Shown here: piece after piece, positions 26,585-30,596 of the stretch
How the letters are laid out: each line of letters opens with the position of its first letter
Numbering within the stretch: position 1 is the stretch's first letter
Assembly (NCBI RefSeq): GCF_027947535.2
Contig: NZ_JAAGKO020000018.1
Location: forward strand, 62,001 to 126,000
Direction of reading: 5' to 3'
Source of the DNA: Streptantibioticus silvisoli
GTDB lineage: Bacteria > Actinomycetota > Actinomycetes > Streptomycetales > Streptomycetaceae
DNA: 64,000 nucleotides
Notes under the pieces: generated by a model
What the model saw: the letters and a program-made list of their open reading frames with translations, nothing else
Told to the model about the DNA's origin: nothing
Database searches by the model: none
Program-made: the position numbers and the translations under genes

Positions 26585-27175
26585 TCAGCGCGCGTGGCAG
26601 CCGGCCAGGTGGTCGTTGACCAGACCGCACGCCTGCATGAGGGCGTAGGCGGTGGTGGGGCCGACGAAGCGGAAGCCGTGCTTCTTGAGGTCCTTGGCCA
26701 GCGCGGTGGACTGCGGGGTCACCGCGGGCACGTCGGCGGTGCCGCGCGGTGCGGGGCGGCCGGCCGGGTCGGGGGCGTGGGACCACACCAGCGCGTCAAG
26801 TCCGCCGTCGTGGCTCCCGGCGAGGTCGACGGTGGCCCGGGCGTTGGTGATCGCGGCGTCGATCTTGGCGCGGTTGCGGATGATCCCGGCGTCGGCCAGC
26901 AGGCGGGCCCGGTCGGCGTCGGTGAACGCGGCGACCTCGGCCGCCCGGAAACCGGCGAAGGCGGCGCGGAACCCCTCGCGGCGCCGCAGGATCGTCAGCC
27001 ACGACAGCCCGGACTGGAACGCCTCCAGGCAGACGCGTTCGAACAGCGCGTCGTCGCCGTGCACCGGGCGGCCCCACTCGTTGTCGTGGTAGGCGACGTA
27101 GTCCGGCGTGGACAGCCCCCAGGGGCAGCGGGCGAGGCCGTCCTCGCCGGTGACCGGCGAGCCGGCGTCACTCAC
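26585..27175 (-). CDS. tag: DNA-3-methyladenine glycosylase I
   Basis: A 196-residue TAG. It begins (GTG) VSDAGSPVTGEDGLARCPWG and contains YHDNEWGRPVHGDDALFE, then GLSWLTILRRREGFRAAF. The structural zinc ligands of TAG correspond to Cys17, His30, His189 and Cys193, all present. It should remove 3-methyladenine from alkylated DNA in base excision repair. The helix-hairpin motif near FVGPTTAYALMQACG is conserved. Its start overlaps the end of the DivIVA-like gene by 8 nt, so the two are co-translated. Confidence 0.93.
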   Translation of the reverse strand: MSDAGSPVTGEDGLARCPWGLSTPDYVAYHDNEWGRPVHGDDALFERVCLEAFQSGLSWLTILRRREGFRAAFAGFRAAEVAAFTDADRARLLADAGIIRNRAKIDAAITNARATVDLAGSHDGGLDALVWSHAPDPAGRPAPRGTADVPAVTPQSTALAKDLKKHGFRFVGPTTAYALMQACGLVNDHLAGCHAR

Positions 27176-27719
27176 CGCGGCCGCCGTCCCACGGACCGGG
27201 CTCGGCGTGCCCCTGCCAGGGGTCGCCCTTGGCCAGTGACGGTCCCGGACCCCGGTCGCCGGGCTCGTGCGGGTACCGCTCCTGCGGGTACTGCTGCTGG
27301 GGGTAGTGCTGCCCCTGCTGCTGGGGCTGTCCCTGCTGCTGGGGGTACTGCTGCGGGCGGGGCTGCGGCGGGCCGTAGTCGGGGCCGCCGAACGCGGGAC
27401 GGCCGAGCCCCGGGCCGCCGAACGCGGCGTCGTGCGCGCCGGCCAGCGCGGCCTCCAACTCGGCGATGCGGGCGTCCCGTTCGGCGAGTTCGGCGCCGAC
27501 CCGGTCCAGCACGTCGTCAACGTCGGACATCCGGTAGCCGCGCAGGGTGACGGCCAGGCGCAGCGCGTCGAGGTCGGCGGGCCGCACCGGGCGCTCGGCC
27601 GGCAGCGGGTCGTCGAGCCGGTCGTGCTCGGCGTCCGGCAGTGTGCCGCCGTTTCCCAGCACCGCGAGGGCGACGGCCGCGACCACCACCACAAGCGCGA
27701 TGAGCATGAACCAGAACAC
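27168..27719 (-). CDS. DivIVA-domain membrane protein, Gln/Pro-rich tail
   Basis: A 183-residue protein. An N-terminal membrane helix (about residues 4-24) precedes a DivIVA-like segment (about 55-95: LRLAVTLRGYRMSDVDDVLDRVGAELAERDARIAELEAAL) that should form a coiled coil. The C-terminal 80 residues are rich in Gln, Pro and Tyr (QQYPQQQ-type repeats) and probably disordered. Such proteins may mark curved membrane or division sites; this is inferred. GTG at 27719 has GGGAG 7 nt upstream. It is the first gene of an operon with tag and is divergent from the FolP2-like gene. Confidence 0.82.
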   Translation of the reverse strand: MFWFMLIALVVVVAAVALAVLGNGGTLPDAEHDRLDDPLPAERPVRPADLDALRLAVTLRGYRMSDVDDVLDRVGAELAERDARIAELEAALAGAHDAAFGGPGLGRPAFGGPDYGPPQPRPQQYPQQQGQPQQQGQHYPQQQYPQERYPHEPGDRGPGPSLAKGDPWQGHAEPGPWDGGRGE

Positions 27720-27855
27720 GACGTGTCTCCCGTTCCCGACCCGAACTGTGGATGACGATCGTGCCATGCCGCTCGTTACCGCGTGGCGCTGCGGGGAGGG
27801 GTTAGGGTCGGCGCGAGGTCCGCACGGGGGTCGGAGAGCGAGGGGAACGGCGAGG

Positions 27856-28479
27856 ATGCTGCGGCTGGGCGGGCGGGAGTTCGGGGAGCACGAGCCGGTG
27901 GTGATGGCGGTGACGGCCGGGGACGCCGGGGCGGTGGCGCGGGCCGTGGCGCAGGGTGCGGCGATCGTGGAGCTGGACGGGCCAGCGGCGCTGCCGGCGG
28001 TGCGGGCGGCGCATCCGGGGCTGGTGGTGGCGGTACGGGCGGCGGACCCGGTCGCGGCGGAGGCGGCCTGCGCGGCGGGCGCCGACCTGGTCGGCGGGCC
28101 GGCCGGCGGCGCGGACCCGGCGTTCGCACGGATCGCCGCCCGGTACGGCGCCGGCGTGGTGTGCGCGCCGCAGGCCCTGGAGGCGGCACTGGCGGCCGGG
28201 GTGCGGGCGGACGGGGTGCTGCTGGACGGCGGGGCCGGTGGCTCGCGGGAGGCGGTCCGGGGCACCGCGGCGCTGGCCGCCACCGGTCACGCGGTGCTGG
28301 TGGGGCTGGCGGACGGCGAGCTGGCCGGCCCGGCCGTGGCCACCGCGGCGGTGACCGCGTGGCTGGGGGCCCGGGTCTTCCGGGTCCGCGACGTCACGGT
28401 GGCCCGGCAGGTCCTCGACATGGTCGCCTCGATCGCCGGTCACCGTCCGCCCGCCGTGACGCTGCGCGGCATGGGCTGA
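27856..28479 (+). CDS. Degenerate dihydropteroate synthase (FolP2-like), likely inactive
   Basis: A 207-residue protein whose two ends match actinobacterial FolP2-type dihydropteroate synthase: MLRLGGREFGEHEPVVMAV at the start and AWLGARVFRV-VARQVLDMVASIAGHRPPAV at the end. Normal family length is about 280. The pterin-pyrophosphate loop (NRTPDSFYD-type) is absent and replaced by TAGDAGAVARAV. The VSVDTWR-type strand reads VAVRAADP, and the DPGHDFGK region is also missing. The TIM barrel seems collapsed, so catalysis is unlikely. The frame is intact with normal codon use, arguing for a retained non-enzymatic role rather than a fresh pseudogene. TAGGGT near 27804 may be its -10. Confidence 0.75.
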   Translation: MLRLGGREFGEHEPVVMAVTAGDAGAVARAVAQGAAIVELDGPAALPAVRAAHPGLVVAVRAADPVAAEAACAAGADLVGGPAGGADPAFARIAARYGAGVVCAPQALEAALAAGVRADGVLLDGGAGGSREAVRGTAALAATGHAVLVGLADGELAGPAVATAAVTAWLGARVFRVRDVTVARQVLDMVASIAGHRPPAVTLRGMG

Positions 28480-28518: not shown

Positions 28519-29451
28519 TCAGACCTCCTTGGTGACCAGGGCGACGGCCTCGTCGACGTCGTCGGTGACGTGGAACAGCTCCAGGTCGGCGCGGGACGCC
28601 TTGCCCTCGGCGATGAGCGTGCCGCGCACCCAGTCGACCAGCCCGCCCCAGTAGGCCGTGCCGAACAGCACGATGGGGAAGCGGGTGACCTTCTTCGTCT
28701 GCACCAGGGTCAGCGCCTCGAACAGCTCGTCCAGCGTGCCGAATCCGCCGGGCAGGACGACAAAGCCCTGGGCGTATTTGACGAACATCGTCTTGCGGAC
28801 GAAGAAGTAGCGGAAGTTGACGCCCATGTCGACGTACCGGTTGAGGCCCTGCTCGAAGGGCAGCTCGATGCCGAGGCCCACCGACAGCCCGCCGGCCTCC
28901 AGCGCGCCGCGGTTGGCGGCCTCCATGGCGCCGGGGCCGCCGCCGGTGATGACGGCGAAGCCGGCCTCGGCCAGGGTGCGGCCGATGCGGACGCCGGCCT
29001 CGTACTCGGGTGAGTCGATGGCGGTGCGGGCCGAGCCGAACACGCTGATGGCCGGGCCGAGTTCGGCGAGCGCGCCGAAGCCCTCGACGAACTCGGACTG
29101 GATGCGCATGACCCGCCAGGGGTCGCCGTGCAGCCAGTCGGTGGAGTCCTGGGTGTCCAGCAGCCGCTGGTCGGTGGTACCGGACTGGACCTGGCCGCGG
29201 CGCCGCACGACCGGGCCGGTGTGCTGTTCGGGCCAGCCGTGGCCGTAGGGGGCGCTCTCGGCGGCCGCGTTGGCCGCGGCGGCGGCCTCCTGCGCGGGCC
29301 TGGGGCTGCCGCCGCCCCCGGTTCTGCGCCCGGCACCGGTGCCCCGTGCGGCGGTTCGCGCCGCGGCGCCCCCCTCGTCGCCCTCCGCCGTGCTCCCGGC
29401 GTCCTGCCGGGGGTGTCGCTCCGTGCGGTACTCGTCCCTCGGTTCAGCCAC
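28519..29451 (-). CDS. LOG-family (TIGR00730) Rossmann-fold protein
   Basis: A 310-residue protein with a lysine-decarboxylase-like/LOG Rossmann fold. Diagnostic motifs are ITGGGPGAMEAANRG and PGGFGTLDE (234-242, Glu242 catalytic). The family includes cytokinin riboside 5'-monophosphate phosphoribohydrolases and other nucleotide N-glycosidases. The first 110 residues are Arg/Gly/Ala-rich and disordered, unlike compact plant LOGs; the substrate is therefore not safely assigned. GTG at 29451 has AAGGAG 6 nt upstream. It lies just downstream of dapE on the same strand (65-nt gap), so co-transcription is possible. Confidence 0.87.
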   Translation of the reverse strand: MAEPRDEYRTERHPRQDAGSTAEGDEGGAAARTAARGTGAGRRTGGGGSPRPAQEAAAAANAAAESAPYGHGWPEQHTGPVVRRRGQVQSGTTDQRLLDTQDSTDWLHGDPWRVMRIQSEFVEGFGALAELGPAISVFGSARTAIDSPEYEAGVRIGRTLAEAGFAVITGGGPGAMEAANRGALEAGGLSVGLGIELPFEQGLNRYVDMGVNFRYFFVRKTMFVKYAQGFVVLPGGFGTLDELFEALTLVQTKKVTRFPIVLFGTAYWGGLVDWVRGTLIAEGKASRADLELFHVTDDVDEAVALVTKEV

Positions 29452-29516
29452 GTCGCGCTCCTTCCTGCCGCCGCGCGCGCGGCGGCCGTAGTTGCAGCGT
29501 ACGTATCCCTGCCCCG

Positions 29517-30596
29517 TTACGCGGTCAGCCAGCGCCGCAGCCGTTCCTCGCACTCCAGGACGGCGGCGGTCTCCACGTGTTCCTCGCGGGTGTGGGCGAG
29601 AGTGGGGTCGCCGGGGCCGTAGTTGACGGCCGGCACGCCGAGGGCGGAGAAGCGGGCGACGTCGGTCCAGGCCTCCTTGGCCGACGGGGTACCGCCGATC
29701 GCGGCGAGGAACGCGGCCGCGGCCGGCTGCGTCAGGCCCGGCAGCGCTCCCGGGGCGCTGTCGGTCAGCTCCACGTCGTAGCCGTCGAACACCTCCCGCA
29801 CCCGGGCCAGCGCCTCGGCCTCCGACTGGTCGGGCGAGAAGCGGTAGTTGACGGTGACGGCGCAGGAGTCGGGGATGACGTTGCCGGCGTGGCCGCCCTC
29901 GATGAGGACCGCGTTGAGGCCCTCGGGGTAGACCAGCCCGTCGATCTCGACCCGGCGCGGCTGGTGGGCGGCGAGCCGGGTCAGGATCGGGGCGGCCTTG
30001 TGGATGGCGTTGTCGCCGAGCCAGCTGCGGGCGGAGTGCGCGCGCCGGCCGGTGGTGGTGATCCGGGCCCGCAGGGTGCCCTGGCAGCCGCCGTGCACCT
30101 GGCCGCCGGTGGGCTCCAGCAGGACCGCGAAGTCGCCGGCCAGCCACTCCGGGTGGTGTTCGGCAAGCCGCTTGAGGCCGTTGAACTCGGCGGCGATCTC
30201 CTCGGCGTCGTAGAAGACGAAGGTCAGATCACGGTTGGGATCGGGCAGCGCGGCCGCCAGTCGCAGCTGAACGGCGACGCCGGACTTCATGTCGGTGGTG
30301 CCGCAGCCGTGCAGCAGGCCGCCGTCCAGCCGGGACGGCAGGTTGCCGGCGATCGGCACGGTGTCGAGGTGGCCGGCGAGCACGACCCGTTCGGTCCGCC
30401 CCAGCGACGTGCGGGCCACGATCGCGTCGCCGTCGCGGTCCACGCTCAGGTGCGGCACCGCGCGCAACGCCGCCTCGACCGCGTCGGCCAGCGGCTTCTC
30501 CTCGCGGCTGACGGAGGGGATGTCGACCAGCTGCGCGGTCACCACGACCGCGTCCTGGGTGAGGTCGAGCACGGGCGTGGTCGTGGAGGCACTCAT
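29517..30596 (-). CDS. dapE: Succinyl-diaminopimelate desuccinylase
   Basis: A 359-residue M20-family zinc hydrolase of the actinobacterial DapE type. Metal and catalytic motifs: GHLDTVP (His76, Asp78), CGTTDMKSG (Asp102) and YDAEEIA with the catalytic Glu. The dimerisation domain sits in the middle, and an HTREEHVE stretch near the end supplies the last histidine ligand. It hydrolyses N-succinyl-LL-diaminopimelate in lysine and peptidoglycan biosynthesis; dapC lies 2.6 kb away. TAGGGT 7 nt before the ATG at 30596 predicts a leaderless mRNA. Confidence 0.93.

Follow-up and report, generated by a model that had tools for sequence, protein, structure and literature searches.

A shrunken, catalytically dead FolP2 in the ancestral folP2 slot of Streptantibioticus silvisoli, a probable pseudoenzyme accompanied by a catalytically intact paralogue

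FolP2 is, to our knowledge, very widespread in the class, and we know of no role assigned to actinobacterial FolP2. The Mycobacterium leprae folP2 gene fails to complement an E. coli folP mutant, and in Gram-positive bacteria of high GC content the gene is grouped with those for the cell wall (PMC1971073); M. tuberculosis H37Ra becomes more susceptible to sulfamethoxazole when it loses folP2 (PMC7809127). The last helix of dihydropteroate synthase (DHPS) is a dimer element that packs on helices 6–8 of the other subunit; the active sites are each contained within one subunit (PMC3098144). A search of open-licence literature joining dihydropteroate synthase with the term pseudoenzyme returned nothing related.

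The window, by which we mean the whole 64,000-nucleotide stretch of DNA analysed, belongs to an 8.7-Mb genome (G000) that is the sole sampled genome of its genus. It carries an open reading frame with an ATG start and a TGA stop, which a sequence-only reading had described as a shrunken FolP2 homologue without an active site, divergent from a DivIVA–tag operon; the DivIVA-domain gene and tag do both lie on the opposite strand. The gene and its neighbours are:

27856..28479, + strand, shrunken, catalytically dead folP2 encoding 207 aa (ORF, profile, PDB search, alignment, AlphaFold2)
27168..27710, − strand, divergent DivIVA-domain gene, slot flank (NCBIfam TIGR03544; synteny)
26585..27175, − strand, tag, DNA-3-methyladenine glycosylase I, slot flank (NCBIfam TIGR00624; synteny)
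28519..29520, − strand, LOG-family gene (TIGR00730), other slot flank, start approximate (profile match; synteny)
29517..30596, − strand, dapE, succinyl-diaminopimelate desuccinylase, conserved neighbourhood (NCBIfam TIGR01900)

The order echA (enoyl-CoA hydratase), tag, DivIVA-domain gene, folP2, LOG, dapE, dapC is common to all Streptomycetaceae-like genomes with an occupied slot that were compared in long loci, and the window gene, between DivIVA/tag and LOG/dapE, has the position of a FolP2 orthologue. Judged by sequence, its kinship with FolP is beyond chance: the protein matches M. tuberculosis FolP2 (2vp8) with an E-value of 8e-20 in two separate pieces, and reaches 30.5 bits (E 2.7e-7) on the NCBIfam DHPS model TIGR01496, below the cut-off of 162.6, and 20.1 bits on Pfam Pterin_bind (PF00809), below the cut-off of 25.5. 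Orthologues across 395 genomes of the family match it in fragments, because it carries deletions: aligned orthologues have ~286 aa, and relative to Streptomyces FolP2 the window protein shows six in-frame deletions (13, 3, 18, 27, 6 and 12 aa; 79 aa in total) and zero insertions. Nearly all of the deleted residues lie within or adjoin active-site loops, such that most of catalytic loops 1, 2, 5, 6 and 7 and parts of the adjoining helices are stripped away. The GC content at codon positions 1/2/3 is 0.89/0.61/0.95, a coding-like pattern. A search of plasmids gave no match.

Catalytic function was scored at eight positions of the pterin, pABA and diphosphate sites (N22, D56, D96, N115, D185, K221, R255 and H257 in DHPS numbering), whose assignment after E. 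coli DHPS we take as given. The window protein aligns with only two of the eight (D185 and R255), whereas all eight are present in 51 of 51 aligned intact orthologues. The ends of the protein are a different matter. Near-invariant FolP2 columns are kept at 11 of 77 positions in the catalytic loops (11/40 excluding gaps) and at 20 of 25 at the two ends, made up of the N-terminal hairpin and the C-terminal helix with its tail (Fisher p 4e-5, gaps excluded). The features in question are:

27970..27972, + strand, E39 at the DHPS Asp56 position, D in 51/51 intact orthologues (alignment)
28036..28038, + strand, R61 at the DHPS Asp96 position, D in 51/51 intact orthologues and R in the dead copy of a second genome, G012 (alignment)
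27856..27897, + strand, N-terminal β-hairpin, residues 1–14, near-invariant positions kept 5/5 (alignment; pN/pS)
28399..28476, + strand, C-terminal helix 8 and tail, residues 182–207, near-invariant positions kept 15/20 (alignment, model, pN/pS)

These counts bear out the sequence-only reading on the shortened length, the lost active site and the FolP2-like ends. Same-length orthologues with pterin-site residues in shifted positions were sought: none of the aligned orthologues has the same length, and the intact ones all have these residues in their normal positions. Two details of that reading need correcting: the VSVDTWR-like strand is still there in substituted form (VAVRAAD), and the DPGHDFGK region reads LLDGG-AGG with 6 aa deleted. 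The strands of the barrel are substituted and not missing.

The genome also encodes a third FolP, here called FolP2b (C78:51202-52074; locus L057), that keeps all eight catalytic positions and scores 247 on the DHPS model, over the cut-off. It sits between miaB and miaA, and the FolP2b of G012 (C1:1476914-1477753; L090), 71% identical to it, occupies the same slot. FolP2b was recognised in only 2 of the 395 family genomes, and these are the two in which a dead slot copy is observed, intactness having been checked by residue in the 51 aligned copies and inferred from match strength in the rest. The slot folP2 of G012 is full length (299 aa) and keeps only R255 and H257 of the eight positions, with the substitutions N22D, D56E, D96R, N115D, D185S and K221G; its near-invariant columns, gaps excluded, are kept at 32/74 in the loops against 23/25 in the hairpin and tail (p 1.4e-5). 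A sequencing or assembly error, which would have undone the sequence-only reading, is ruled out by the six in-frame deletions of the window gene and by the dead residues of the G012 slot copy. The genome of the window further contains an intact folate-type FolP1 (C120; TIGR01496) and MetH (C4); as FolP1 is intact, folate synthesis is independent of the window gene. At the miaB–miaA position, a conserved gene of ~250 aa is found in 7 of 8 relatives compared (L156–L163); searches of Pfam and NCBIfam gave no match for it.

The two genes show opposite patterns of conservation between the two genera, each sampled by one genome (G000 and G012). For the pair of dead copies, pN/pS is 0.546/0.470 (~1.2) in the loops, 0.309/0.450 in the scaffold, 0.114/0.436 (0.26) from helix 7 to the tail and 0.116/0.402 at the N-end (hairpin and β1); for the FolP2b pair, the corresponding values are 0.159/0.375, 0.166/0.546, 0.33/0.53 and 0.41/0.645. 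Conservation in the dead copies thus centres on the N-terminal hairpin and C-terminal helix/tail, and in FolP2b on the loops, its ends having diverged; identities of the dead pair and the FolP2b pair differ with p 8e-8 in the loops and p 3e-5 in the hairpin and tail, and such a contrast is mostly absent from pairs of intact FolP2. In both dead copies GC1 and GC2 are ~7 s.d. above other FolP2, and Ala/Gly/Pro/Arg make up 50–55% of residues, a sign of relaxed constraint across much of the protein, beside firm constraint at the ends.

An AlphaFold2 model of the window protein predicts a complete (β/α)8 barrel, with strands and helices numbering eight each (pLDDT 90.5, pTM 0.88), and a Foldseek search with this model returned 2vp8 (M. 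tuberculosis Rv1207) as best match (TM 0.85). The run used 30 homologues, full-length ones included, which favours a barrel; the model therefore speaks for a barrel-compatible sequence and is no proof of folding. The G012 slot copy is likewise modelled as a barrel, with low-confidence segments (59–69, 150–163 and 232–241) in catalytic loops 2, 5 and 7, the loops in which the window protein has its larger deletions. Since DHPS dimerises through its last helix, retention of this helix in the dead copies suggests, by analogy, that a protein contact may be retained.

How the dead state came to be in two genera is constrained by their relatives. In a tree of rpoB and rpoC, G000 is sister to G016 and near G013, G007 and G005, and the slot copies of all four are intact; inheritance of the dead state by sister genera is rejected, as a clade of G000 and G012 is incompatible with rpoB and rpoC (AU p 7e-73). 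Because the two genera are non-sisters and close relatives are intact, the dead state either has two origins or was passed on laterally. In the FolP2 tree the window copy (on a very long branch of 1.95) groups with the G012 slot copy (99/97) inside the Streptomycetaceae-type clade, a grouping that long branches may cause; when loop columns are omitted, the test fails to reject a window copy placed beside the G016 group (p 0.33). At novel shared positions, the two dead copies agree at 8 of 25, against 3.7 expected (P 0.016). FolP2b forms a clade apart from the slot FolP2 of the family, which speaks against a recent duplication as its source, and a class sample of 247 genomes contained no relative of it above 71% identity; FolP2b may be an acquired gene or an old duplicate that other lineages have lost.

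Between the DivIVA-domain gene and folP2 lies one further conserved feature:

27756..27768, + strand, conserved element CGATCGTGCCATG, DivIVA–folP2 intergenic region (kept at both dead-copy loci; one occurrence in the window, against 0.02 expected by chance)

It may serve the DivIVA-domain gene or folP2 as a promoter or regulator site. A 12-base core, GATCGTGCCAYG, occurs once in ~50 loci; at every locus where we checked its position, both dead-copy loci among them, it lies upstream of folP2. It is absent from the FolP2b loci.

Other genomes depart from the pattern. The ancestral folP2 slot is empty in G010 (L167) and G375 (L165), which each carry, at another site in the genome, a divergent FolP2 with ~50% identity to FolP2b; in G375 the ends of this copy have diverged as far as the FolP2b ends (10/25 kept, vs. 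13/24 and 12/25). As these ends have diverged while the slot is empty, diverged ends in an active copy need not accompany a retained slot copy. These two genomes, supportive at first as a clean control, became ambiguous once end conservation was counted, and their empty slots weaken a strict complementation model. Three genomes of one genus of the same order (G032, G033 and G035; g21) gave no match to the window protein and no FolP2 beside the LOG gene, and in two of these genomes FolP2b itself found no match stronger than that expected of FolP1; FolP2 is thus not needed universally. Separately, G379 has a divergent FolP2 besides its slot FolP2, and five FolP-like matches (C81, C85, C95 and C126), two of them ~25 kb apart on C81. 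An outlier of the survey, G089, was set aside: its assembly is 76% complete, and its FolP2 is a full one that has intact motifs and carries frameshifts.

We propose, with a probability of about 0.7, that the window gene is a vertically inherited folP2 turned pseudoenzyme, kept for a non-catalytic role after FolP2b took over catalysis. In keeping with a pseudoenzyme, its catalytic residues are lost and its fold is under purifying selection, as gauged between the two genera. FolP2b would supply the putative catalytic activity of FolP2, and selection on the active site of the old copy would then end; its freed loops would drift to Ala/Gly and be deleted; and the old copy would be retained since its ends form a needed binding surface, most simply a protein–protein contact, given the part that the last helix plays in the DHPS dimer. 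The candidate partner may be FolP2b, the old copy itself or another protein. The main competing account, which we regard as improbable, is that of a dying pseudogene, made redundant by FolP2b and eroding by GC-biased substitution and in-frame deletion, with the kept ends as leftover or chance. The strongly raised GC1/GC2 and Ala/Gly/Pro/Arg content, the loop pN/pS near 1.2 and the complete deletion of the slot copies of G010 and G375 are all in keeping with decay, and an open frame says little, as chance open frames are common at 81% GC (many shadow ORFs). Yet loops and ends have had equal time to erode and differ sharply in what they keep, a contrast that the non-sister genus repeats; moreover, all six deletions are in frame, the model retains all eight strands and the helices, and the codon-position GC pattern is still coding-like. 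The sequence-only reading had taken the intact frame and codon bias as grounds for retention: retention stands, the frame argument is weak at this GC content, and the real evidence is conservation together with the codon-position pattern. Its proposal of a non-catalytic purpose is supported by the catalytic residues lost, the purifying selection at the ends and the predicted full barrel. It did not extend to FolP2b in the same genome, to the second genus with a dead slot copy or to the opposite conservation patterns, and it missed FolP2b as the likely trigger of active-site loss.

A narrower form of the pseudoenzyme reading, which we consider doubtful, makes the dead copy an obligate partner of FolP2b in a heteromer, providing the C-terminal interface that FolP2b has lost. 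The opposite conservation patterns, the co-occurrence of both genes in 2/2 genomes and the architecture of DHPS, with its dimer built on the last helices and its active site within one subunit (PMC3098144), would fit such a pairing; but the two genes are non-adjacent and their pairing is inferred from sequence, a common interface should constrain both partners whereas FolP2b diverges there, and G375, whose slot is empty, has a FolP2 whose ends have diverged. That the trimmed barrel has been neofunctionalised, with a new ligand-binding or catalytic site, seems very improbable: the barrel is apparently retained and D124 and R176 are kept, but loop residues evolve at a near-neutral rate and are mostly unshared between the two dead copies, and the loops are cut down to Ala/Gly. 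A broader idea, to which we give tentative credence short of even odds, is that the catalytic function of FolP2 can be separated from a second function seated in the hairpin and C-terminal helix, and that the two were split in two non-sister genera into a two-gene enzyme/pseudoenzyme pair: the second copy catalytic and the original its non-catalytic partner, once as a minimal barrel. Under the pseudoenzyme reading that we prefer, the genome pair shows which parts of FolP2 are dispensable without loss of the gene, thereby indicating the N-terminal hairpin and C-terminal helix as the seat of the non-catalytic role, and the 207-aa protein offers a natural example of how far trimming of the DHPS barrel can go.

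Compared with known systems, the window protein stands closest to actinobacterial FolP2 (Rv1207/2vp8 and M. leprae folP2), its orthologous family, in which 2vp8 is the closest solved sequence and fold; the aligned intact orthologues differ from it in keeping 8/8 catalytic positions in ~286 aa, as against 2/8 in 207 aa. FolP2b belongs to the same superfamily, has FolP2-type motifs and occurs in the same two genomes, but differs in its 8/8 catalytic positions, its diverged ends and its clade outside the family's slot FolP2. FolP1 shares the barrel fold and distant sequence similarity with the window protein, and is intact. The sequence-only reading had placed the window gene a further step beyond Mycobacterium FolP2: the failure of M. 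leprae folP2 to complement is in line with that reading (PMC1971073), but because the aligned intact FolP2 orthologues keep all eight sites, a lack of DHPS activity in FolP2 is separate from the loss of the site itself seen in the window protein.
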